Assembly: GCA_008125075.1 (NCBI GenBank)
Contig: VLTH01000001.1
Span: 62,001-126,000 of the forward strand
DNA length: 64,000 nucleotides
Direction of reading: 5' to 3'
From: Acetivibrio alkalicellulosi
GTDB lineage: Bacteria; Bacillota; Clostridia; Acetivibrionales; Acetivibrionaceae
The number at the start of each line of letters is the position of its first letter. The first letter of the stretch is position 1. The translations under genes and the position numbers were made by a program. Positions 49,888-64,000 of this stretch are shown piece by piece. Under the pieces are notes generated by a model, which was given only the letters and a program-made list of their open reading frames with translations, ran no database searches and was not told the DNA's origin.

Positions 49888-50001
49888 CTCAGGAATTTGA
49901 GTTATTTTTAGAACATATACTTCTAAATAAGAACTATTCACCAAAGGAATGAAAAGAGGTTTATTATGGGACTGCTTAGGCAAAAAAAAGGAGGGGTTTA
50001 T

Positions 50002-50709
50002 ATGATGAAAGAAATAATAACTTTCAAAGATGTTTCAAAAAAATACGTAATGGGTGAAGTAACAATTAATGCACTGAATAACGTTAACTTTTCTATAAAC
50101 GAAGGAGAACTAGTAATCGTACTGGGATCCAGTGGTGCTGGTAAAACTACAGTACTGAATCTATTAGGAGGAATGGATAGAGTTAGCTCTGGGCAGATAT
50201 ATGTAAATCAAAAGGATATTACTCAATTTAACGAAAAGGAGCTGACAAATTACAGGAGAGAAAGTATTGGATTTGTGTTTCAGTTTTATAATCTTATATC
50301 AAATCTAAACGCGTTAGAAAATGTAGAATTTGCTGCTGATGTTTGTAAAAATCACTTAGATTCCGAAACTATATTAAAGGATGTAGGTTTGGGGGAACGA
50401 TTATACAATTTTCCTTCTCAGCTGTCAGGAGGGGAGCAGCAAAGAGTCTCTATTGCCCGTGCGGTTGGGAAGAATCCGCTTTTACTGCTTTGCGATGAAC
50501 CAACTGGTGCACTTGATTATGTTACAGGAAAACAGGTATTAAAGTTGCTGTATACCGTGAACAAGGAATATAAAAAGACGGTAATAATTATTACCCATAA
50601 CACATCAATTGCAGAAATGGGAGATAAGATTATACGTATGAAAAGTGGACAGATCCAAGATGTTACGCTAAATCAGAATATTAAGTCAGTAGAGGAGATT
50701 GAGTGGTAA
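50002..50709 (+). CDS. ABC transporter ATPase (MacB/LolD-like)
   Basis: A 235-residue nucleotide-binding subunit of the type paired with FtsX-like permeases. Walker A is GSSGAGKT (residue 42), the Q-loop is FVFQFYN, the signature is [14 protein letters not shown], Walker B is [11 protein letters not shown], and the switch His is in IIITHN. FtsX-type pairs export peptides, drugs or lipids or move resistance signals. I start at ATG 50002, 7 bases after GGAGG; the upstream in-frame ATG at 49966 would add MGLLRQKKGGVY, which is really the ribosome site. It overlaps its permease by one base (TAATG), so translation is coupled. Confidence 0.92.
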
Positions 50710-53060
50710 TGAAGAAGCTATTTATAAAAATAACCCGAGATATTAAAAAATCATTGGGTCAGTTTTGCGCAATAACGATTGTATCAGCGATTGGTGTTAT
50801 GTTACTGACTGGTATTTCTTCTGTTTATAATGCTCTTTATAACACAACGGATAAATATTATGAGTCCGCCAATTTATCTGATTTATCCATTCGATATGTG
50901 GGAATTGATCCCGCTGGAATTGAGAAAATTAAAGTAGTAGATGGGGTCACTGGTGCCTATGGAAGGTACATTGGTGAAGCACATAATTTAAAAAATTCCT
51001 CATCGTTTCTTGTACATTCCGTTACGGAGAATCAAAATATTAGTATTCCAGTTATGGATATGGGAGTACTTCCAGCAGAAGAGAATGAGTGTATGGTTAA
51101 CACTGCATATGCCGAAGAAAATCAATTATTTGTGGGAGACGTTGTTAAGGTTAGTATTGCAGATAATGATTTAAGTTTTACTATAACAGGATTATTTAAT
51201 ACTGCTGAGTACATTTTTCATGTAAACGAATCCACAAAGGCATTGCTTCCCAATCATAAAGAATATGGACTGCTTTACGTTGCAGATTCCTTTGTTACAA
51301 AAATGCAGGGGAGCCTTATCTATAATCAAGTACTGGTGACTTTAGAACATACGAAAGAAGGGGCTCAGGTTGTAGATGAAATCCTTGCTGTTACTGAAGA
51401 ATATGGTTTTTCTGCAAGAACCTTCAAAGAAGATCAAATCAGTTATAAATGGCTTAATACGGATATTGTTACACTAGGATCTGTATCTGTGTCATTTCCA
51501 TATGTTTTCTTTTTAGTGGCCTCCCTTATCATTTTTATCAGTATGTCACGAACTGTTGAGTCAGAAAGAAATCAAATTGGAATTATGAAAGCACTAGGTT
51601 TGTCCTCTTCTACCATCTCATTACATTACATAACCTATTCTGTTTATACAGGTGTGACTGGAGGAATAATAGGTAACGTGCTGGGGATTTTTGTGTTGCC
51701 CGAAATTTTACTAAGCGTATATACTCCCAAATACACATTTCCAGAAATAGAATTTAGCGGACAGTGGAAGTATATAGTGCTTTCTATAGTAGTTCTGCTT
51801 ATATTTGGCATAACTGCAAGTTTTATTTCGGTACGAAAGAAACTAAAAGAAGTTCCTGCCCAGTGCATGCGTCCACTACCACCAAAAAAAATTAAGAAAA
51901 CTTGGATTGAAAAAAGGACTTGGCTGTGGAAACGTCTTTCTTATAAAAATAAACTGGTTTTTCGAAATGTGGTTTTGAATAAAAAAAGGGTTTTGTTAAG
52001 TGCTATTGGAATTATTGGCTGCACAGGGCTTCTGATTTCAGGGTTTGGGCTAAATGAAGCCACTAATAGCATGTTATATATACAGTTTGATAAAATACAG
52101 ATGTATGATGCAGTAACAACCGTTGCAGAACCTGTAGAATACAGTCAGCCGACTCCTTTTGATTATGACAATGTAATAGCGACAGATAAAGTATCTACCA
52201 TTTCTGTTATCACTACAACAAGAGAAAGAATGCAGGCAAACAAAAGACTGTATATCTTGGATTCTGATAATACAACGGTTCAATTGTATAATAAAGAAAA
52301 TCAGAAAATTGAGTATCCAAAACACGGAATTTCTGTACCCTATAAATTTGCAGAAGAAAATAACATAAAGTCTGGAGATACACTTACAATGGCACTGGGT
52401 TCTTCTTTATATGGTAATAGAACTATTGAGGTTAAGGTTGAGTCAATTTGTGTTCTTTATGTAACACAAGATTTGTATACGTCCTATGAGTACTTGGAGT
52501 CCCTGGGAATTGACTCTTATGTAAATGGATACTATTTGAAATTTGAAGATGCAAAAAAGGAGAAGGAAACGGTTGAGTACTTGAAGTCAGTTGAAAACAT
52601 AAAAACTGCTCAAAGCAAAGAACAACTACTGGATGATATGGGTTATGTGCATGATGTTATGAATACATTAGTTTATGTCCTAATCTTTATGTCTGCTTTA
52701 CTTGCTCTGGCGGTTATATTTAATATTAGTTCAATCAATATTTTTGACAGAAGAAGAGATATTGCAACACTTAAGGTGCTCGGATATCATAAAAAAGAGA
52801 TTAACCGTTTAATTCATATTGAAAATTATATTGTAACTAGTTTTGGATGCTTAGGAGGAGCATTTTTTGGAGCCATTTTACATAAACAGATGCTTCTATC
52901 GGTAATGACTGGCGATTTATATCTGCCATACTATGTATCTGCAAGTATGGTTATTATATCTGTTGTGCTTGCCTTTGTATTTACTGCATTAGCAAATCTC
53001 CTACTAAAAGGAAAGATCGCTAAAATTGATATGGTGGAATCACTTAAGAGTGTTGAATAG
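50709..53060 (+). CDS. FtsX-like ABC permease, large two-unit form
   Basis: A membrane permease of about 783 residues with around eight membrane helices: one near the N terminus, three in a first FtsX unit (about residues 260-380), one near 425, and three in a second FtsX unit (about 655-780). Two large extracytoplasmic loops (about 45-255 and 445-650) are typical. Each FtsX unit shows the RxxIGIMKALG / RRDIATLKVLG motif (ERNQIGIMKALGLS; RRRDIATLKVLGYH) that contacts the ATPase. ATG 50709 overlaps the stop of the ATPase gene; GTG two codons earlier is also possible because GAGGAG sits 5 bases before it. It forms the transporter with the preceding ATPase. Confidence 0.9.
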   Translation: MKKLFIKITRDIKKSLGQFCAITIVSAIGVMLLTGISSVYNALYNTTDKYYESANLSDLSIRYVGIDPAGIEKIKVVDGVTGAYGRYIGEAHNLKNSSSFLVHSVTENQNISIPVMDMGVLPAEENECMVNTAYAEENQLFVGDVVKVSIADNDLSFTITGLFNTAEYIFHVNESTKALLPNHKEYGLLYVADSFVTKMQGSLIYNQVLVTLEHTKEGAQVVDEILAVTEEYGFSARTFKEDQISYKWLNTDIVTLGSVSVSFPYVFFLVASLIIFISMSRTVESERNQIGIMKALGLSSSTISLHYITYSVYTGVTGGIIGNVLGIFVLPEILLSVYTPKYTFPEIEFSGQWKYIVLSIVVLLIFGITASFISVRKKLKEVPAQCMRPLPPKKIKKTWIEKRTWLWKRLSYKNKLVFRNVVLNKKRVLLSAIGIIGCTGLLISGFGLNEATNSMLYIQFDKIQMYDAVTTVAEPVEYSQPTPFDYDNVIATDKVSTISVITTTRERMQANKRLYILDSDNTTVQLYNKENQKIEYPKHGISVPYKFAEENNIKSGDTLTMALGSSLYGNRTIEVKVESICVLYVTQDLYTSYEYLESLGIDSYVNGYYLKFEDAKKEKETVEYLKSVENIKTAQSKEQLLDDMGYVHDVMNTLVYVLIFMSALLALAVIFNISSINIFDRRRDIATLKVLGYHKKEINRLIHIENYIVTSFGCLGGAFFGAILHKQMLLSVMTGDLYLPYYVSASMVIISVVLAFVFTALANLLLKGKIAKIDMVESLKSVE

Positions 53061-53141
53061 AAATATAAAAGTATAAATACCACATTTAGTACATTTTACT
53101 CGTATATTGATTAATTGTAGTATTATATCGGGAGGTAAATT

Positions 53142-53993
53142 ATGATTGAAGTAAAGAATGTTAATTTCAGCTACACAAAAAAACCTTTTATTCAAAATGT
53201 TTCATTTTCAGTTGAAAAAGGGGAAATACTAGGATTTCTTGGTCCCTCTGGAGCAGGTAAAAGTACGTTGCAGAAAATTCTGACAGGCTTGATTGTAACA
53301 TACGAGGGGAATGCTATTGTCAATGGAGTGGAAAGCCGAAAGCATGATAATAATTTTTATGAACATATAGGTGTAGACTTTGAATTTCCCAGCTTATATG
53401 AAAAGCTCACGGCACGTGAAAACCTGAATTATTTTCGTTCCCTATATAAAAAGAAAGGTTCCTCAGTAGATGAGTTGTTGAAAATGATTGGACTTAGCAA
53501 TGACGCGGATAAGAAGGTCTCTGCATTTTCAAAAGGAATGAAGTCCAGGCTAAACTTTATTAAAGCGTTATTACATAATCCAGACATTTTGTTTCTGGAT
53601 GAACCTACAAGTGGATTGGATCCAACCAATGCCAGAATTATGAAGGATATTATTTTGGAACAAAAGAAAGCCAGTAAAACTATTATTTTAACTACTCATA
53701 ATATGGAGGATGCATCAGAATTATGTGACAGGGTAGCTTTTATTGTAGATGGAAGGATAAAGGCATTGGATACTCCCCATAACCTGATTATGTCAAAAGG
53801 AGCGTCAAAAGTTGAATATTCCTACCTAAATGAAAACAATCTAGAGGAGAAGGCAGAATGCTTGCTCAGTGATCTAAAAAATGACAAAAAGCTGATACAC
53901 TTAATAAATACGGATAGGATTATCTCGATACATAGTAGTGAGCCAAATTTAAATGATATTTTTATGGATATAACAGGGAGGGTGCTATGTTAA
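53142..53993 (+). CDS. ABC transporter ATPase (ABC-2 exporter type)
   Basis: A 283-residue nucleotide-binding subunit. Walker A GPSGAGKST, signature FSKGMKSRLNFIKAL (SKGM rather than SGGQ, as is common in ABC-2 exporters), Walker B ILFLDEPTSGLDP, switch His in LTTHNMEDA. The C-terminal extension after residue 215 is typical of drug and bacteriocin exporters. GGGAGG lies 7 bases before the ATG. Its stop overlaps the next permease start by seven bases, so this ATPase works with the two small permeases that follow rather than with the FtsX pair. Confidence 0.92.
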   Translation: MIEVKNVNFSYTKKPFIQNVSFSVEKGEILGFLGPSGAGKSTLQKILTGLIVTYEGNAIVNGVESRKHDNNFYEHIGVDFEFPSLYEKLTARENLNYFRSLYKKKGSSVDELLKMIGLSNDADKKVSAFSKGMKSRLNFIKALLHNPDILFLDEPTSGLDPTNARIMKDIILEQKKASKTIILTTHNMEDASELCDRVAFIVDGRIKALDTPHNLIMSKGASKVEYSYLNENNLEEKAECLLSDLKNDKKLIHLINTDRIISIHSSEPNLNDIFMDITGRVLC

Positions 53994-54679
53994 CAGTTAG
54001 GTTATGGAATCTGATTGCTGGAGATGTAAAATTTCAGGTGAAATATGGATTTTATTTTATTTATGCAATTCTTGTTGCTGTTTATATATTTATTTTAAGC
54101 CTGATACCATCAGAATGGAAGGAAAGGGTGGCCGATGTCATGATATTTACGGATCCAGCGGCTATTGGTATGTTTATAATAGGTGCAGTGGTTTTATTTG
54201 ACAAAAGTCAACGAGTGTTAAATTCTTTGGCAGTTTCACCTGTAAAAGTGAATGAGTATCTGATTTCAAAATTAGTTTCTATTGGGGTACTTTCGTCATT
54301 TGTGGCATTGGTTATAGCGTTCGTTTCTCCAAAGGAAAACTACTTTACGCTATTCATTGGTACTTTTTTGGCGTCAGTGTTATTTACACTAATTGGTATG
54401 ATTGTGGCTACTAAAATACGAAGTATGAATCAGTTTATTATGGTTATTGTTCCTTTTGAAATTATTATTTTTTTGCCACCCATTTTGCATATAGCAGGAT
54501 ATCATAACTTTTTTTTATTACTGCATCCTGGAGTTGCAGTAATGAGCCTTATTCAAGGTAACTTATCAAACGTTTTTTTCAATTTAATTATTCTTATTTC
54601 TTGGATTTTACTTTTAAGTTTATTAGCTTGTAAAAGGGTAGAAACAATGTTTTGTAGTATTGGAGGGGGGAATTTATGA
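53987..54679 (+). CDS. ABC-2 type permease subunit
   Basis: A 230-residue membrane protein with about six helices, the pattern of the small permeases of ABC-2 drug exporters (fluoroquinolone-exporter-like style). The N-terminal soluble piece (LTVRLWNLIAGDVKFQVKYG) before the first helix is typical. It overlaps the ATPase gene by seven bases at the start and the next permease by four bases (ATGA) at the end, so all three are translationally coupled. The substrate is unknown. Confidence 0.85.
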   Translation: MLTVRLWNLIAGDVKFQVKYGFYFIYAILVAVYIFILSLIPSEWKERVADVMIFTDPAAIGMFIIGAVVLFDKSQRVLNSLAVSPVKVNEYLISKLVSIGVLSSFVALVIAFVSPKENYFTLFIGTFLASVLFTLIGMIVATKIRSMNQFIMVIVPFEIIIFLPPILHIAGYHNFFLLLHPGVAVMSLIQGNLSNVFFNLIILISWILLLSLLACKRVETMFCSIGGGNL

Positions 54680-55388
54680 AAGCGGTTCTTATGTCTTATC
54701 GACGAATGGTAAGAGAAACTTTTTCGGATATCATGCTTATTCCTGTAACCGTTGCACCGTTTTTGTGTGGAGTGGCCTTCCATTATGGAATACCTATAGT
54801 AGAGAAAATATTGGTAAATCAACTGAACAGACCTCATGTATTGGAACCGTACTACTTAATTTTTGATTTAGTTATGCTATGCTGGCGGCTATGCTGTTTT
54901 GTTTTGCTAGTGCTATGGTTACTTTAGGTGAAATGGATGATCATATTTCTATCTATATGTCCATAACTCCTCTTGGACGAAAAGGGTATTTGTATTCAAG
55001 GTTTGCCATTCCTACAGGAGTTGCCTTTCTTGTTACGGTGTTTGTACTAGCCATTTTTTCTGTTACAAATTTTACTTTACCAGCTTTACTATTATTATCT
55101 ATTATTGCTTCCTTGGTTGGGATGTTGGTTTCCTTTATGATTGTTGCACTGGCGTCAAATAGAGTAGAAGGAATGGCGGTCTGTAAAATTGCATCACTTA
55201 TTATGCTGGGAGCTTTTGTACCGTTCTTTATAGCTGAAAAAAGTCAATATATATTTACAATATTGCCCTCTTATTGGATGGCGAAATACATGTTAGAAAA
55301 TAAGGTTTCCTATGCTTTTCTTTCGCTCGCAATCTCATGCGTTTGGATTGTTTTGCTTTTTAACAAGTTTAAGAAGAAATTAAATTAA
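54676..55388 (+). pseudogene. Second ABC-2 permease subunit, split by a frameshift
   Basis: Two overlapping frames encode one ~235-residue permease. The first (54676-54927) gives MKAVLMSYRRMVRETFSDIM through YLIFDLVML, then degenerates into CWRLCCFVLL. The second frame carries MLAAMLFCFASAMVTLGEMD and the remaining helices to 55388. The switch falls at about 54870-54885, where GTTATGCTATGCTGG contains a repeated TATGC. A one-step shift there restores a continuous protein. It may be a true mutation, a recoding site, or a sequencing error. The start overlaps the previous permease by ATGA. Confidence 0.8.
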
Positions 55389-55472: not shown

Positions 55473-55803
55473 TATTGATAAAATCTAAAATGACTATAGT
55501 ATATATTATGAAATGAGTATACTAGTTACTTTTTTTAGTAAGAATACGATAAAAATAAGTCGTAAATTAGCTGTTATTAAAGGTTTTGTTTTTGTATACA
55601 AGTAAAATTAACTAAATTATAAAAAAAAGGTTGCAAATGTTGACAATGTAATATTGGTACTATATAATAGTCGTAAGAATATTAGGGGATAAAAGAACTT
55701 TTTAGCAAGAAAGATAAAAAAATACGAACAAAGATAAAGTGCCCAATTTAATTGATTATTGTTGCGGTTAGCTACATAATCATTATGAATAGGAGGTGCA
55801 CAT
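55473..55803. other. Upstream region of the polyketide cluster
   Basis: It holds the consensus promoter at 55640-55668 and about 130 bases of leader with AGGAGGTG before the ATG. No gene is seen. Confidence 0.6.
55640..55668 (+). promoter_or_regulatory. Sigma-A promoter of the PKS cluster
   Basis: Perfect TTGACA (55640-55645) and TATAAT (55663-55668), 17-base spacer. It would drive the AT-AT-ER gene and, with only a 57-base gap after it, the modular PKS too. Confidence 0.8.
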
Positions 55804-58800
55804 ATGAAAAAGAATGTATTTATGTTTAGTGGACAAGGTTCTCAGTACTATCACATGGCTAAAGTACTATATAGTCAAAACGTTGTCTTTAAAGAGTGGA
55901 TGGCAAACATCAATCACAAGTTATTTCAATTAACTGGTATTAATATTAGAGATAAAATATATGATGAAATGAAAACAATGTCAGATGCATTTGATCGATT
56001 ATTGTATACGCATCCAGCTATCTTCATGATTGAATACGCTCTTGCTCAAACTTTAATTGAGGCAGGAATTGAACCTAATTGTGTACTTGGTTCTAGTTTA
56101 GGAGAACTGGTAGCATTAACGTTGGCTGACTTTGTTGAACTTGATAAAATGTTGGAATTTATTATTTATCAGGCTCAGTGCATTGAAAGCAGCTGTGTAA
56201 CAGGAAGAATGTTGGCGGTTTTTGATGATGCTAGCATGTATAAGGAATCCATTATGTGTCAAAACTGCTGCCTGGTTTCTGAGAATTATGTGGGGCATTT
56301 TGTAGTTTCAGGGAGTCATAACGAAATAAAAATAGTTTCGGACTATTTAGACACAATGAATATAAGATATCAAATTTTATCTGTTGCGTATCCATTCCAC
56401 TCACCTCTTATAGACAATATGAAGAAGTATATAGAAGACTTTTCGATGCCTGTAAAGTATCCTTCTTCTAGAATTCGAGTGGTTTCATGTGCATTGGGGA
56501 CAGAAGTGAAAAGTGTAAATAATGAGTTATTTTGGAGAATAGCTAGAAATCCAATTCGGTTCAAGGAAGCAATTAATTATCTAGAAAGCTTGGAGCCACA
56601 CAATTACATTGATCTTGGTCCAGGTGGCACTTTATCTAATTTTTCAAAAAGAAATCTGAATAAAAATTCAAAATCTAATGTTTATTCAATCATAACTCCA
56701 TTTGGAACTGAAATTACTAATTTGGAAATTGTAAAGAACAAATGCAGTAACTCATCCAAAAATACTATATTAAGAGGAAAGAAGGAAATGAATGTGTTAG
56801 CGTATGTTTTTCCAGGACAAGGTTCTCAATGCAAAGGGATGGGAGGAGATTTATTTGATGAGTTTTATGATTTAACAGAAAAAGCAGATAAAATTCTGGG
56901 ATACTCAATTAAGGAACTATGCATGAATGATACAGAAAACCTATTAAATCAAACAAGCTATACCCAACCTGCACTGTACATAGTAGGAACATTGTCCTAT
57001 TTAAAAAAATTAAAGGAAACAGGAATCAAGCCAGACTTTGTTGCTGGCCACAGTTTAGGAGAATATGTGGCACTATTTGCTTCTGGTGTAGTTGATTTTG
57101 AAACTGGTCTAAAGCTAGTAAAAAAGAGAGGGCAATTAATGTTTCAGGCAACAGGTGGAGGAATGGCAGCGGTCATTGGAATGAGCGAGGAGAAGGTTTT
57201 TGAGGTATTACAGCAGCACCAATTAGACACGATCGATGTAGCAAACTATAATTCACCTTCCCAAATCGTTATATCTGGGCATAGGACAGACATAGAAGAG
57301 GCAAAGGAGCTATTTGAGGCAGAAGGTGCCAGATATATAATTTTAAAAGTTAGCGGTGCATTTCATTCTCGTTATATGCAAGAAGCAGCGGAAGAATTCG
57401 CTGAGTATCTGCATACATTTGTCTTTTCCAATATGGCCATTCCGGTTATTTCAAATGTAACAGCCAAACCATATAATGAAATAGCTATAAAACAAAATCT
57501 TATTCAACAGATTACACATTCTGTTAAATGGTCAGATACTATTCGGTATCTAATGGGAAAGGAACCAATAGACATTGTGCAGATAGGTCCAGGAAATGTA
57601 CTTGATGGGTTTACGAAAGCAATTAAGAGAGAAGCCGCACCCCTAATTGTAGAGGATGAGGAAAGAAACGAGAAAGAATCCAGTCAAGATAAAGAAGAAA
57701 ACAGAAAATCTGCTGCTGGTTTAGGAGATGCTTCATTTTGCTTGGATTATGGACTAAAGTATGCTTATGTTGCAGGAGGGATGTATAAAGGAGTAGCATC
57801 AAAGGAATTAGTGGTAAGAATGGGGAGAGCTGGATTTATGGCCTTTTTTGGATCAGGCGGCTTAAGCTATGATGCGATCGAGGAAGCAATTCAACTCATT
57901 CAAGGAGAATTAAATAATGGGGAATCTTTTGGGATGAATGTTCTTTATAATGCAAACAATCCTGAAAAGGAAGAAAAATTAGTCAATCTACTTCTGCAAT
58001 ATGGAGTAAACAAAATAGAAGCAGCCTCTTACATCAATATAACACCTGCACTCGTTCGATTTCGCCTTTATGGAATAAAAAGAGATGAGAAAGGAATAAT
58101 CTGTACAAAGAATAAAATAATTGCAAAGGTATCTAGACCCGAAGTTGCAGAACGATTCTTAGCGCCACCTCCTAGTCGTATTTTGGAAAAGCTTGTATCA
58201 GGGGGGCAAATAACTGAGAAAGAGGCAAATTTGGCAAAGAGGATACCAATGGCAGATGATATTTGTGTAGAAGCCGATTCGGGTGGGCACACTGATCAGG
58301 GCGTAGCGTACACGTTGGTGCCAGCTATGATTTGTTTAAGAGATGCTATGATGAGAGAGTATGGGTATTCAAAGAAAATTCGGATTGGAGCAGCGGGCGG
58401 TATCGGTACACCAGAAGCAGCAGCGGCAGCATTTATCTTAGGTGCAGAGTTTATTATGACTGGGTCCATTAATCAATGTACAGTAGAAGCGGGAACCAGT
58501 GACTCAGTAAAGGAAATCTTACAGCACATCAATGTTCAGGATATGGATTATGCGCCATCAGGAGATATGTTTGAGCTGGGAGCCAAGATTCAGGTATTAA
58601 GGAAGGGGACATTTTTTCCTGCAAGAGCAAAAAAACTGCATGATTTGTACTTGAATCACCAGTCGATAGAAGAGATTGATGGAGATATCAGAAAGCAATT
58701 GGAAAAGAGATATTTTAATAATCCATTAGAAACTATTTATGAGGAAGTAAAAAGGCATTATAGCATACAGGAGATTGAAAAGGCAGAAAAGAATCCAAAG

Positions 58801-59055
58801 CATAAAATGGCTCTGATATTCAAATGGTATTATGCATATGCAACAAAAATTGCACTTTTAGGAGATGAAGGGGATAAGGTAAACTATCAGGTGCCTTGTG
58901 GACCAGCGTTAGGAGCATTTAATCAGTGGATAAAGGGTACAGAATTGGAAAGCTGGAAAAACCGGCATGTTGATGAGATTGCAGAAAAAATAATGAAAGA
59001 GACAAGAGAGGTCATAGAATGCAGGCTGAAATCCATACTAGCAGAGTCCGTATAA
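55804..59055 (+). CDS. trans-AT PKS tailoring protein: acyl hydrolase-like AT, AT and PfaD enoyl reductase
   Basis: A three-domain protein, 1083 residues. Domain 1 (about 1-290) is acyltransferase-like, with GSSLGE (S98) and PFHS, but the Arg that binds the malonyl carboxylate, 25 residues after the Ser, is Gln (Q123). That is the mark of proofreading acyl hydrolases of trans-AT systems. Domain 2 (about 333-620) is a full malonyl-CoA:ACP transacylase with GHSLGE (S417), R442 and GAFHS. Domain 3 (about 655-1083) is a PfaD-type FMN enoyl reductase (GGLSYDAIEEAI, EADSGGHTDQG, GAAGGIGTPEAAAAAF, TGSINQ). The fusion order matches known discrete AT-AT-ER proteins of trans-AT polyketide pathways such as MmpC. 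It loads malonyl units, clears stalled intermediates and reduces enoyl groups in trans. It is followed after 57 bases by the modular PKS. Confidence 0.93.
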   Translation: MKKNVFMFSGQGSQYYHMAKVLYSQNVVFKEWMANINHKLFQLTGINIRDKIYDEMKTMSDAFDRLLYTHPAIFMIEYALAQTLIEAGIEPNCVLGSSLGELVALTLADFVELDKMLEFIIYQAQCIESSCVTGRMLAVFDDASMYKESIMCQNCCLVSENYVGHFVVSGSHNEIKIVSDYLDTMNIRYQILSVAYPFHSPLIDNMKKYIEDFSMPVKYPSSRIRVVSCALGTEVKSVNNELFWRIARNPIRFKEAINYLESLEPHNYIDLGPGGTLSNFSKRNLNKNSKSNVYSIITPFGTEITNLEIVKNKCSNSSKNTILRGKKEMNVLAYVFPGQGSQCKGMGGDLFDEFYDLTEKADKILGYSIKELCMNDTENLLNQTSYTQPALYIVGTLSYLKKLKETGIKPDFVAGHSLGEYVALFASGVVDFETGLKLVKKRGQLMFQATGGGMAAVIGMSEEKVFEVLQQHQLDTIDVANYNSPSQIVISGHRTDIEEAKELFEAEGARYIILKVSGAFHSRYMQEAAEEFAEYLHTFVFSNMAIPVISNVTAKPYNEIAIKQNLIQQITHSVKWSDTIRYLMGKEPIDIVQIGPGNVLDGFTKAIKREAAPLIVEDEERNEKESSQDKEENRKSAAGLGDASFCLDYGLKYAYVAGGMYKGVASKELVVRMGRAGFMAFFGSGGLSYDAIEEAIQLIQGELNNGESFGMNVLYNANNPEKEEKLVNLLLQYGVNKIEAASYINITPALVRFRLYGIKRDEKGIICTKNKIIAKVSRPEVAERFLAPPPSRILEKLVSGGQITEKEANLAKRIPMADDICVEADSGGHTDQGVAYTLVPAMICLRDAMMREYGYSKKIRIGAAGGIGTPEAAAAAFILGAEFIMTGSINQCTVEAGTSDSVKEILQHINVQDMDYAPSGDMFELGAKIQVLRKGTFFPARAKKLHDLYLNHQSIEEIDGDIRKQLEKRYFNNPLETIYEEVKRHYSIQEIEKAEKNPKHKMALIFKWYYAYATKIALLGDEGDKVNYQVPCGPALGAFNQWIKGTELESWKNRHVDEIAEKIMKETREVIECRLKSILAESV

Positions 59056-59112
59056 TGAAAGGGCAAGAATACGTTGCTTTGTAAATTTGGTGGATATGGC
59101 AGGGGGGAAAAA

Positions 59113-62100
59113 ATGATTTCAAAGGATTATATACTTAGAATGGTAAAAGAATACAAAATTAGCTCCGGAGAAGGTGCCAGAATTCTAAAAATGCTAACTC
59201 AGGGAAGAAAAATTGAAGAGAAAGATATTACTCAATTGTTATTATACTCCTGTGAGTATGAGAAAAAGGAACTCCATTATCAGAATCAGGAGCATGAAGA
59301 AAGTATAGTAATATTTGATGAAGATTCTATGTTGAAGAAAACATTGCAAAAACTCAACTCTTTTTCAAACTCGAATATGATGCTGGTGAATTTAGGAGAG
59401 AAGGAAAGTCTGGACAACTTCTTTTTAGAACTGAGGCAGAAAAAGATTGAACTGTCCTGTATTATATTTAACATTAAGTCAGAAAAATTTGGAGTCTTGT
59501 CAGGGGTATCAGGCTACGCAGCACTGGAGAAAGGCTTATTGTCCGTATTTGAAATAACTAAAGCCTTGTTTATGTCAGGATTAGATAGAAATGTACGTAT
59601 TTTCTTCTTGTACGAGAGCTCTGGTTTGGGTTCTGCACCACTATTTTCGGGTATGCAAGGATTTTTTAAAACCGCTTGTTTAGAGAATCAAAAGGTGGCA
59701 TATAAAACCATAGGATTAGAGCCATTTAATCCAGAGAAAATAGGAAAAATTCTAGAGGAAGAAATACAATTGGACATTTACAATGAAGATGTTTGCTATG
59801 TTGGGGATAAACGATATGTAAAGTCCATTAAACCTATAGAAAGAGAAAAAATATTAAAGAATAGTGTTTTAAAAAGCGGTGGAACTTATCTTTTGATTGG
59901 AGGAAATGGAGGGATTGGATTTGCAATTGCAAAATTTCTTGCAGAAAAATATAAAGCCAATCTTGTCATTTCAGGCAGGCGGGAACGAAGCCAATCAATT
60001 CAAGATAAAGTTACAGAGTTAGTTCAGTTGGGGGCACAAGTTGAATATGTAAGGGCTGATATTACCCAAAAGGAAAGTGCTACTTTGCTGGTTCAGCTTG
60101 CCAAAAGACGTTTTGGAAATATAAATGGTGTTTTTCAAATTGCAGGGGTTATAAAAGATAATTACATCATGAAAAAAAGTAAAAGCGAATGGAAAGAAGT
60201 AATATCACCTAAAGTTATGGGAACTTTACATATACATGAAGCACTGATAGATGAAAAAATAGATTTTCTTCTTCTGTTTTCCTCTATTGTTTCCGTGGTT
60301 GGAAACAATGGACAATGTGATTACGCTTATGCAAATAGTTTTTTGGATGAGTTTGCTTTTTATAGAGAGCAGCTTAGAAAGGCTGGAAGGTGTCAGGGAA
60401 AAACTATTTCTATTAACTGGCCATTGTGGAAAGATGGCGGCATGAAGGTACCAAAAGAGGTTGAGAAATATTTCAAATCTACATTAGGAATGGTTTCTAT
60501 TGAAAATGATATGGGAATCAGAGTTTTGGAGGATATCCTGAATATGGAGTCTGTGCAAACAGTTGCCGTTACTGGATTTCGTGAAAAGCTGAATAAGAGG
60601 CTGGGGATGATTTCAAAAGGGAAGGAGAAAGAGGGAGAAAAGAAGGAGCAAATAGGTGAAACAGATTTTCTAAATGAAATACACTGTTTTGTAAAAAGCA
60701 CCATTGGAACAATTCTGAAAGTTGAGATAGCTGATGTAGATGTGGAAGGGGCTTTTAGCGAATATGGATTTGAATCCATTACCTATACAGAATTAGCCAA
60801 TCTGGTTAATGAGGAATATGACATAGACTTAAATCCTACTATATTTTTTGAATATCCAGTAATAAAAGGCTTTGCTCAGTATATAGTAGATAATTATAGA
60901 GAAAAAATGAAAAAAAACTTCAGAACGAAGCTGATGGGAATTAGGGAATTAGGGAATTCGGCAGTAAGTGAAGAAGTTTTTTCTAGTTTCATCAAAAAAG
61001 TGGTAGTTCAAATTCTAAAAGTACGTGAAGAAGACATAGATATGGAAGGTACTTTTAATGAATATGGATTTGAATCCATCACCTATACAGAGCTTGTAAA
61101 TCGGATCAATGAGGAATACGCCATAGACTTAAATCCTACCGTTTTTTTTGAATATCCAGTCATAGGAGATTTCGTGAAGCACCTATTGAATCACTTTGAG
61201 TTAGAAATGAAAGGTTTTAGCAGGAGTGAAATGGTGAAGGATGACTATAAAGATAACGGATGGACGAAAGAAGGTGCTCTGGAGGAACAGATAGTTATAG
61301 TGGATGAAGTGGTGAAAGAGAAGGAAGAAACGATTTTAGTGGATGAAGTGGTGAAAGAGAAGGAAGAATCTGTACACATGATTTGTAAAGGAGAGAGGGA
61401 ACCAGTTGCGATAATAGGAATAAGTGGAAAAATGCCTGGATCCAACAGTCTGGAGGAATTTTGGAAGCATATTGAGAGGGGAGAAGATTTAGTACAAGAA
61501 ATTCCTGCAGAACGTTGGAACTGGAAAGAGTATTATGGAGATAAGCATGAGGCAAATAAATCCTATTCAAAATGGGGGGGGTTTATCCCCGATATTGACA
61601 AATTTGACGCAAGTTTTTTTCATATATCTGCTCATGAAGCATCTTTAATGGATCCTCAGCACAGGATGTTGTTACAGACAGTATGGGAAGCTGTGGAAGA
61701 TGCTGGATATAAAGCCTCTTGTTTTGCTGGAACGAATACAGGTGTTTTTGTAGGGATAGGTGTCAATGATTATGGGGATTTGATGTATCAAAATAATGTT
61801 GATATTGAGGCACATACTTCTACGGGAAATTATGTTTCAGCTGCAGCTAATCGGATTTCCTATGTGTTTGATTTACATGGGCCAAGTGAGCCAGTTGATA
61901 CGGCATGCTCCAGTTCTCTGGTCGCTATTCACAGAGCGGTTGAAAATATACAAAACCATAATTGCGATATGGCTATTGCGGGTGGTGTCAATGCATTGCT
62001 ATCTCCAAAAGCATATATTTCTTTTTCAAAAGCTGGTATGCTGTCACCAGATGGTAAATGTAAAACCTTTGATAAGAATGCCAATGGATATGTTCGCAGT

Positions 62101-64000
62101 GAAGGGGTTGGAATCGTTATATTAAAACCTTTAAGTCAGGCAGAGAGAGATGGAGATACGATATATGGGGTTATAAAAGGAAGCTTTGTAAATCATGGTG
62201 GAAAGGCAGAATCATACACGGCACCTAATTCCCATATGCAGTCAGAGTTAATTGTAGAAGCTTGTAACCGTGCAGGAATTTCGCCTGATACGATTACATA
62301 CATGGAAGCTCACGGGACAGGAACTAAGCTGGGAGATCCAATAGAATTCTCTGGGTTAAAGAAAGCATTTGATATACTCCACCAAAAATGGAATATTGAC
62401 AACGTGATGCATTATTGCGGTATTGGTTCAGTAAAAACTAACATTGGGCACTTGGAAATGGCTGCTGGCATGGCAGGGCTATTTAAAGTACTTTTATCTA
62501 TGAAGTATAAAAAAATACCGAAGATGCTCCATTTTAAAGAAGTAAATCCTTACGTTTGTACAGAAGGTACTCCTTTCTATTTTGTTACAGAAACAAAAGA
62601 GTGGAAACATTTAAGACGGAATGACAATCAGATAATTCCATATAGAGCAGGTATTAGCTCTTTTGGCTTTGGTGGTGTGAATGCTCATTTGATTGTGGAA
62701 GAATATATACGAGAAAAACAAGAAATACCAATGAGCATTCCAGCATTGTTCTTATTTTCAGCAAAAACCATCCCAGTGCTAAAGGAAAATATAAAAGCTA
62801 TGATTGCGTTTTTGTCAGAAGAGAGAACCATCTCTATTTATGATATGGCATATACATTGCAGACAGGTCGCGAAGAGATGGAGGAACGCTTTGCAGTTAT
62901 TTCAAATTCAAAGGAAGAATTGTTAATCCAGTTGAAGGCGTTTTTGGCTGAACCGAAAGCTGTAAATATTTTAAGAAGAAAAGAGAAATTAAAGCAGTCA
63001 GGTGCTGAAACGAGTCCGAATGCTCATATTATTGACCAGTTGATTGAGAAGATGCAGCTAGAAGAATTGCGGAACCTTTGGTTATGTGGATATAAGATAA
63101 ACTGGGAGCTGCTGTATGAACAGAAACCTCACAGGGTATCCCTTCCCACCTATTCATTTGACAAGAAAAGGCATTGGATTCCTTGCAATCGATTCACACG
63201 TAATCAACGTTATAGTTCAAAAAATGGTTTATTTGATGAATTTGTGATTTCAAAAAGTATGAAGTCAGGACTTATGTTTAAGAAGAATTTTAGCAGTACA
63301 GATTTCCAAGTAAAGCATGCAAGTATAAATAATAAATCCTGTATTTCACTATCAGTTTTGTTGGAAATGCTTTGTAATCAGATAGCTATAATAGACCCCG
63401 AGAAAAGGTTAATCATAAAAAATATTGAGGCAGATGAGCCACTTGTTTTTGATGAAAACGAAATAGACCTATATTTGTACCTAACTGAAAAAGAGGAAAG
63501 TCGTTATGTATTTACATTTTCCGATAGTGCAGAGGAAGGTAAAGTCTATGCAAAAGGTGAGTTCCATTTTGAAGGAAATCGTGATATAGAACAATTGGAA
63601 ACAATAGTTTTAGATGAAATAAAGGAACGTTGCTTTAACAGATTAGATGAAAACCAAATATATGAAAAGCTAGAGCACTTCAATTTACGCTATGATTCTT
63701 ATTTGAAATCAATTCATACCGTATTTATTAATGAACAGGAAGGGATTGCAGAAATTACCTTATCAGACTGGGTGTGTGGGGAGTTAAAAGGCTGTTTCAT
63801 TCACTCAGTAGTAATGGAAGCGGTTCTGCAATCCTTACCAATGATTTGGGAGGAAGGCAGTTTGCGGATTCCAAAGGGAGTTCAGCAAGTTGATGTTTGC
63901 CATTTAATGGATAAACAGAGCTATGTTTATATTAAGAAATATGGACAGAATCATTACAATGCTCTTGTAACAGACTCCTGTGGAACGATTTGTGCCAGAT
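59113..64000 (+). CDS. Modular trans-AT polyketide synthase (KR-ACP-ACP-KS-DH-like), runs off the window
   Basis: An open frame of 1629 codons with no stop, starting at ATG 59113 behind AGGGGGG. Domains: ketoreductase, with a structural half (about 85-250) and catalytic half (about 255-430: GGNGGIG, LLLFSSIVS, then YAYAN); two nearly identical acyl carrier proteins with Ser 555 and Ser 655 in GFESI, exactly 100 residues apart; a charged linker (about 700-760, including VVKEKEE repeated); ketosynthase (about 762-1195) with C932 in DTACSSS, H1067 in EAHGTGT and H1113 in NIGHLE; the post-KS LPTYSFDKKRHWI linker; and a dehydratase-like domain from about 1375. No AT domain lies within the module, so malonyl is supplied in trans by the upstream protein. 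The dehydratase keeps H1402 but has lost several motif residues. The product is unknown. Confidence 0.93.
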   Translation, partial: MISKDYILRMVKEYKISSGEGARILKMLTQGRKIEEKDITQLLLYSCEYEKKELHYQNQEHEESIVIFDEDSMLKKTLQKLNSFSNSNMMLVNLGEKESLDNFFLELRQKKIELSCIIFNIKSEKFGVLSGVSGYAALEKGLLSVFEITKALFMSGLDRNVRIFFLYESSGLGSAPLFSGMQGFFKTACLENQKVAYKTIGLEPFNPEKIGKILEEEIQLDIYNEDVCYVGDKRYVKSIKPIEREKILKNSVLKSGGTYLLIGGNGGIGFAIAKFLAEKYKANLVISGRRERSQSIQDKVTELVQLGAQVEYVRADITQKESATLLVQLAKRRFGNINGVFQIAGVIKDNYIMKKSKSEWKEVISPKVMGTLHIHEALIDEKIDFLLLFSSIVSVVGNNGQCDYAYANSFLDEFAFYREQLRKAGRCQGKTISINWPLWKDGGMKVPKEVEKYFKSTLGMVSIENDMGIRVLEDILNMESVQTVAVTGFREKLNKRLGMISKGKEKEGEKKEQIGETDFLNEIHCFVKSTIGTILKVEIADVDVEGAFSEYGFESITYTELANLVNEEYDIDLNPTIFFEYPVIKGFAQYIVDNYREKMKKNFRTKLMGIRELGNSAVSEEVFSSFIKKVVVQILKVREEDIDMEGTFNEYGFESITYTELVNRINEEYAIDLNPTVFFEYPVIGDFVKHLLNHFELEMKGFSRSEMVKDDYKDNGWTKEGALEEQIVIVDEVVKEKEETILVDEVVKEKEESVHMICKGEREPVAIIGISGKMPGSNSLEEFWKHIERGEDLVQEIPAERWNWKEYYGDKHEANKSYSKWGGFIPDIDKFDASFFHISAHEASLMDPQHRMLLQTVWEAVEDAGYKASCFAGTNTGVFVGIGVNDYGDLMYQNNVDIEAHTSTGNYVSAAANRISYVFDLHGPSEPVDTACSSSLVAIHRAVENIQNHNCDMAIAGGVNALLSPKAYISFSKAGMLSPDGKCKTFDKNANGYVRSEGVGIVILKPLSQAERDGDTIYGVIKGSFVNHGGKAESYTAPNSHMQSELIVEACNRAGISPDTITYMEAHGTGTKLGDPIEFSGLKKAFDILHQKWNIDNVMHYCGIGSVKTNIGHLEMAAGMAGLFKVLLSMKYKKIPKMLHFKEVNPYVCTEGTPFYFVTETKEWKHLRRNDNQIIPYRAGISSFGFGGVNAHLIVEEYIREKQEIPMSIPALFLFSAKTIPVLKENIKAMIAFLSEERTISIYDMAYTLQTGREEMEERFAVISNSKEELLIQLKAFLAEPKAVNILRRKEKLKQSGAETSPNAHIIDQLIEKMQLEELRNLWLCGYKINWELLYEQKPHRVSLPTYSFDKKRHWIPCNRFTRNQRYSSKNGLFDEFVISKSMKSGLMFKKNFSSTDFQVKHASINNKSCISLSVLLEMLCNQIAIIDPEKRLIIKNIEADEPLVFDENEIDLYLYLTEKEESRYVFTFSDSAEEGKVYAKGEFHFEGNRDIEQLETIVLDEIKERCFNRLDENQIYEKLEHFNLRYDSYLKSIHTVFINEQEGIAEITLSDWVCGELKGCFIHSVVMEAVLQSLPMIWEEGSLRIPKGVQQVDVCHLMDKQSYVYIKKYGQNHYNALVTDSCGTICAR

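Follow-up and report, generated by a model that had tools for sequence, protein, structure and literature searches.

The right-hand end of the DNA stretch analysed here opens what is very probably a complete orphan trans-AT polyketide synthase (PKS) cluster (C1:117804-173525), whose proteins would act in the order g6, g2, g3 (+g4), g5, with release of the chain by a terminal thioesterase (TE). The whole stretch, hereafter the window, comprises 64 kb (C1:62001-126000) of the 5,307,226-bp, three-contig genome of Acetivibrio alkalicellulosi; window-equivalent coordinates are C1 coordinates minus 62000. The cluster covers 56 kb and holds six open reading frames (ORFs) with 13 KS domains, all of them on one strand (C1:123399-171476).

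Gene content and upstream region

A sigma-70-type promoter of full consensus, TTGACA-N17-TATAAT (55640..55668, + strand; 12 of 12 positions, 17-nt spacer), lies ahead of the PKS genes, and the 64-kb window holds three exact sites of this form where a first-order Markov model predicts 0.2. AGGAGG is found 5' of the ATG of g1 at 55804. The product of g1 (55804..59055, C1:117804-121055, +; 1083 aa) is a fusion of an acyl hydrolase (AH), an acyltransferase (AT) and a PfaD-type (trans-acting) enoyl reductase (ER). The AH domain (55804..56733, +), whose best solved-structure match is the acyl hydrolase PksD (over 5-311), carries GSSLGE at the nucleophile and a Gln where the malonate-binding Arg would stand, the latter position having been read by eye. 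A nucleophile of the GSSLGE type and the absence of this Arg are diagnostic of acyl hydrolases (PMC11775670), and the domain has the features of the AH in AH-AT-ER fusions, where the nucleophile follows a Ser, Ala or Val and the FabD-117 position lacks an Arg. The trans-acting malonyl AT domain (56788..57657, +; TIGR00128) has GHSLGE, keeps the Arg within KKRGQLM and matches the structures of PksC, PksE and DisD, so that a discrete malonyl AT, as characteristic of trans-AT PKSs, is encoded within the cluster. The third domain (57712..59028, +; TIGR02814, 664 bits) matches DfnA, MlnA and PfaD in structure and provides the C-terminal PfaD-type ER of an AH-AT-ER fusion. Such fusions have been described before, for example OzmM (PMC11775670); whole-fusion matches to g1 occur in Desulfosporosinus, Thermoflavimicrobium, Brevibacillus and others, and the view that the fusion is unusual was dropped in light of the many found in a search of genome contigs.

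The operon's first modular PKS ORF, g2 (59113..64000 in the window and on to window-equivalent 76152; C1:121113-138152, +; 5679 aa), likelier starts at the ATG at 59113, behind AGGGGGG, than at the TTG at 59074. Domain order, motifs and split points were read from the translations, and for g2 the series is KR-ACP-ACP-KS1-DH-KR-MT-ACP-KS2-KR-ACP-KS3-[pseudo-ACP]-KR-ACP-KS4. Within the window, a docking-type N-terminal sequence is followed by the KR (59881..60435, +; PF08659), tandem ACPs with GFESIT twice (60676..61191, +; two PF00550 stretches), KS1 with its Cys-His-His intact in the alignment (61393..62739, +; PF00109, 310 bits), and a DH-like domain that runs past the window end (63238..64000, +; PF14765) and in which alignment finds the HxxxGxxxxP pattern degenerate. 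Beyond the window lie, all on the + strand, g3 (C1:138139-146979; DH-ACP-KS5-KR-ACP-KS6-DH-KR, the last domain cut), g4 (C1:146949-160070; KR tail-ACP-KS7-DH-KR-ACP-ER-KS8-DH-MT-ACP-KS9-DH), g5 (C1:160084-167529; KR-ACP-KS10-ACP-KS11-ACP-TE) and, past this thioesterase ORF, one more PKS ORF, g6 (C1:167547-173525; KS12-DH-ACP-KS13-DH). Acyl_transf_1 gave no match in the pieces between the KSs of g2 to g6 (13 KS modules), as befits AT-less modules.

The initial annotation had seen in this region the start of a trans-AT polyketide cluster, with a consensus promoter leading into an AH/AT/PfaD fusion and an AT-less modular PKS, and each of these readings held up, the PKS genes running 47 kb further than the window. 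Its designation of g2 as the first modular gene is correct for the operon; in the assembly line, another protein probably precedes g2.

Upstream of the PKS genes, and possibly serving in export or self-protection, lie ABC transporter genes (49966..55388, +) for two ATPases, a permease of the FtsX/MacB type and ABC-2 permeases. At the other end, downstream of the cluster, there is a 725-aa ORF (L022:15254-17428) for which Pfam returned no match. An Rfam search of the window yielded a full-length match to a tmRNA gene (2241-2626) and nothing besides.

Catalytic state, the serine-less insert and the frameshift

In the alignment, the catalytic Cys and the second His (NIGH type) are kept in 13 of 13 KSs. 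KS12 alone has QGTGT where its relatives have HGTGT, and since it lacks this His it is predicted to be non-elongating; the DH that follows it has Asn for Asp in the second motif. The phosphopantetheine-site Ser is present in all ACP matches of the cluster but the one within the KS3 linker, and a single Sfp-type PPTase was found in the genome (C2:2377-2378 kb), inside the celluxanthene-like (cex-like) locus.

This exceptional match is a 72-residue ACP-like stretch located 35 residues past the KS3 core, inside the flanking subdomain (L020:10046-10783). Among the 192 KSs examined, seven more have this insert at the same place, two of them from macrolactin synthase and one from bacillaene synthase. 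The Ser motif is missing from all eight inserts, whereas 249 of 277 other ACPs keep it. For the KS3 linker with its insert, an AlphaFold model gave a mean pLDDT of 62, rising to ~82 across most of the insert; trans-AT KS linkers match the modelled linker along its length, and the insert matches solved ACPs with TM ~0.7-0.87 (target length) at ~2 A. As the Ser is missing, the insert cannot be phosphopantetheinylated, and a working extra ACP in the KS3 module was therefore dropped. A similar, weaker insert is seen in the KS10 linker of g5. A tentative proposal, to which we give rather less than even weight, is that the insert of KS3, and probably that of KS10, would have a structural role or act in docking (of the trans AT or of neighbouring lines) and be miscalled as an ACP by annotation tools, and that KS12 would be a transacylating loader of a preformed alpha-methyl starter. 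A pseudo-ACP recurring in KS linkers matters for the automated prediction of modules.

Three-frame translation places the g3/g4 boundary inside the KR that follows KS6, which led us to reject a subunit split in favour of a frameshift within this domain. In one frame the KR runs to ...INWPLWEEGG, after which the translation departs from the pattern of the family, while in the -1 frame the domain continues with MHPELGAIEKVY; the switch falls at a run of six G (C1 ~146949-146990; run ~146951-146965), a site that also fits the -1 slippage heptamer G GGG GGA. The break may reflect misassembly, a genuine mutation or a site of slippage, and with this KR cut the line may be inactive, unless the break is a sequencing error or slippage bypasses it. 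A second split affects the last ABC-2 type permease, 5' of the PKS promoter, which is broken into overlapping frames (window 54676-54927 and 54879-55388; split ~54879-54927) at a ATGCTATGCT tandem repeat, which looks like a small duplication and is not a homopolymer error. That the two lesions together mark a decaying, non-functional cluster seems unlikely to us, however: the remaining PKS ORFs are all open over 55 kb with their catalytic motifs mostly intact, the permease is linked to the cluster only by its position as a neighbour, and single-base errors at G runs do occur in long-read assemblies.

Order of the proteins and the predicted product

Counting g3 and g4 as one, the proteins end in KS13-DH (g6), KS4 (g2), KS9-DH (g4) and TE (g5), and they begin with KR-ACP-ACP (g2), DH-ACP (g3), KR-ACP (g5) and KS12 (g6). 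Only one linear order, g6-g2-g3/4-g5, closes all split modules and ends at the TE, from which we infer that the last gene acts first and that the line is non-colinear. In the mechanism we propose, with activities deduced from the domains, the AT of g1 would load malonyl units onto the ACPs, its AH domain would hydrolyse stalled acyl-ACPs, and its PfaD-type ER would probably act in trans to reduce selected enoyl intermediates. The PKS proteins would most likely act as g6, g2, g3 (+g4) and g5: g6 would open the chain with KS12-DH-ACP and end in KS13-DH, a module to be completed by the KR-ACP-ACP of g2, and the thioesterase of g5 would release the chain.

The KS phylogeny and the protein termini point to the same order. 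KS12 groups, with a support of 0.995, with KSs that open PKS ORFs, mostly ORFs immediately next to an AT-PfaD gene; they come from Thermoflavimicrobium, Paenibacillus, Alkalimonas and a genome of the same order (G403), and the grouping speaks for g6 as the protein that starts the chain. KS4 falls (0.998) with the KSs of macrolactin and bacillaene synthases that precede //DH-ACP, lacks a flanking subdomain and has a basic tail at its end, features that likewise argue for this order; at DHD (KS//DH) junctions the flanking subdomain of the KS is known to be missing (PMC9113145). Across g2/g3 the series KS3-KR-ACP-KS4//DH-ACP has the architecture of a dehydrating bimodule split after its second KS, and the KS4//DH-ACP junction is most likely a split of this type. 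The second KS of a type A bimodule is non-elongating; KS4 keeps Cys, HGTGT and NMGH in the alignment, and as its Cys-His-His is retained, type A is not claimed. Furthermore, the terminal sequences of g6, g4, g2 and g5 at the DH//KR junctions (g6/g2 and g4/g5) resemble those of macrolactin synthase proteins, suggesting docking ends of the four-helix-bundle type and lending the order additional support; such docking pairs are specific (PMC9113145).

The alternative that the proteins act in gene order, with g2 first, g5 and its TE last, and g6 a spare or a separate initiating piece outside the series, appears improbable. The arrangement of g2 to g5 conforms to it and the TE does reside in g5, but g2 would then open with KR-ACP-ACP in the absence of a KS or a loading domain, the KS-DH end of g6 would be left without a partner, and g6 and g2 are compatible at their DH//KR ends.

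For a line running g6-g2-g3/4-g5, the domain content predicts a chain of ~11-12 C2 units, partly unsaturated and with several hydroxyls or alkenes. Two C-methyl groups would be introduced by the KS1 and KS8 modules, one fully reduced unit by the KS7 module with its ER, and one or two unreduced (or unextended) units would be placed near the carboxyl end by KS10/KS11; the prediction extends to neither ring size nor structure. KS13 lies in a group (0.974) of KSs most of which come after modules that bear a methyltransferase, and no MT precedes KS13 here; an alpha-methyl starter is one reading of this, with little support.

Relation to known pathways and to the host

In a tree with the macrolactin, difficidin and bacillaene KSs and those of relatives from the order, the KSs of the cluster fall among those of other trans-AT pathways and not with each other; the known-pathway references are three Bacillus lines, and many distances are ~1. 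The macrolactin synthase (mln) of Bacillus velezensis shares with the cluster an AT-PfaD gene beside the PKS genes, one PKS protein whose first domain is a KS, modules split at DH//KR and KS//DH with similar terminal sequences, Ser-less ACP-like inserts in KS linkers, and several KSs in common clades. In contrast to mln, the cluster has an AH fused to AT-PfaD and its presumed starting gene last in the operon. That it is a known macrolactin-like pathway carried by another genus is highly improbable, and identity with the macrolactin pathway was rejected: KS4, KS6, KS7 and KS11 do group with macrolactin KSs and the split points agree, but the modules follow another series (with two MT modules, a cis ER, a KS-DH-ACP start, and a TE after two KS-ACP modules), the KS distances are large, and no match to the AT-PfaD exceeds 60% identity.

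Bacillaene synthase (pks/bae) resembles the cluster in its AH, AT and AT-ER activities, its terminal TE, its KS-KR-ACP-KS//DH-ACP dehydrating bimodules and an ER after the ACP in a late module. Bacillaene synthase includes NRPS and HMG-synthase genes, whereas none were seen among the ORFs of the cluster, and its AH is a separate protein. The orphan BGC11 of Brevibacillus brevis (K3DAK4, PDB 7ZMA/7ZSK) is like g6 in its KS-DH-ACP-KS series (1743-bit match to the 1992-aa protein); on the other hand, K3DAK4 represents modules 3-4 of another orphan line, and its first KS best matches KS13, not KS12. The trans-AT clusters in seven genomes of the same order have other module series with KS identities of at most 67%, and the one in G403 (contig C42), whose first KS is of the same kind, was considered as an orthologue but dismissed.

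Outside the cluster, each KS has its closest relative at 47-67% identity, and the nearest AT-PfaD relatives are at most 60% identical among 84,980 species plus a class sample, in which the host's own records may be left out. Strong g6 matches occur in nine of 58 genomes of the order, the host included, the others being at most 56% identical, and in only three others of a 398-genome sample of the phylum; a PfaD gene was absent from the other 13 genomes of the host family, and a search of plasmids gave nothing above 60% identity. With no close relative among the species searched, the product is probably an undescribed compound made by known chemistry. The suggestion of an uncharacterised polyketide in the initial annotation is thereby supported, as neither a described product nor a near-identical cluster was matched; the rarity it attached to such clusters was overstated. 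Many trans-AT clusters, with up to 16 KSs per cluster, were tabulated by Behnken and Hertweck (PMC3250452) in C. cellulolyticum and C. papyrosolvens; by description, those clusters resemble the present one as trans-AT PKSs of cellulolytic clostridia, a kind known since 2012 and hence not new, and trans-AT lines have also been reported in fastidious gut anaerobes (PMC7930024).

Few polyketides of strict anaerobes have known structures, and an orphan line that is complete and almost intact, in an organism that forms cellulosomes, offers a tangible target for isolation. The non-colinear order of this line can also serve to test whether the sequence of proteins can be read from the ends of split modules. 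The host had been surmised to be a cellulolytic-type anaerobe, and its genome, with at least 149 dockerin matches (150 of 282 candidates scored) and 47 cohesin matches, is that of a cellulosome-forming organism; a 5.3-Mb genome with 142 dockerin proteins and 44-45 cohesins has been reported for A. alkalicellulosi (PMC6780208).

A second polyketide pathway, celluxanthene (cex), is probably present in the same Acetivibrio genome; unlike the cluster described here, it is an iterative cis-AT PKS at a separate locus, and the two are unrelated. The region C2:2376-2390 kb (L024:1565-13872) holds an iterative PKS, an Sfp-type PPTase, an alpha/beta hydrolase, an acyl-CoA ligase and a KAS III, which corresponds to the cex gene content, and a cex locus is listed for A. 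alkalicellulosi DSM 17461 (PMC12144888).
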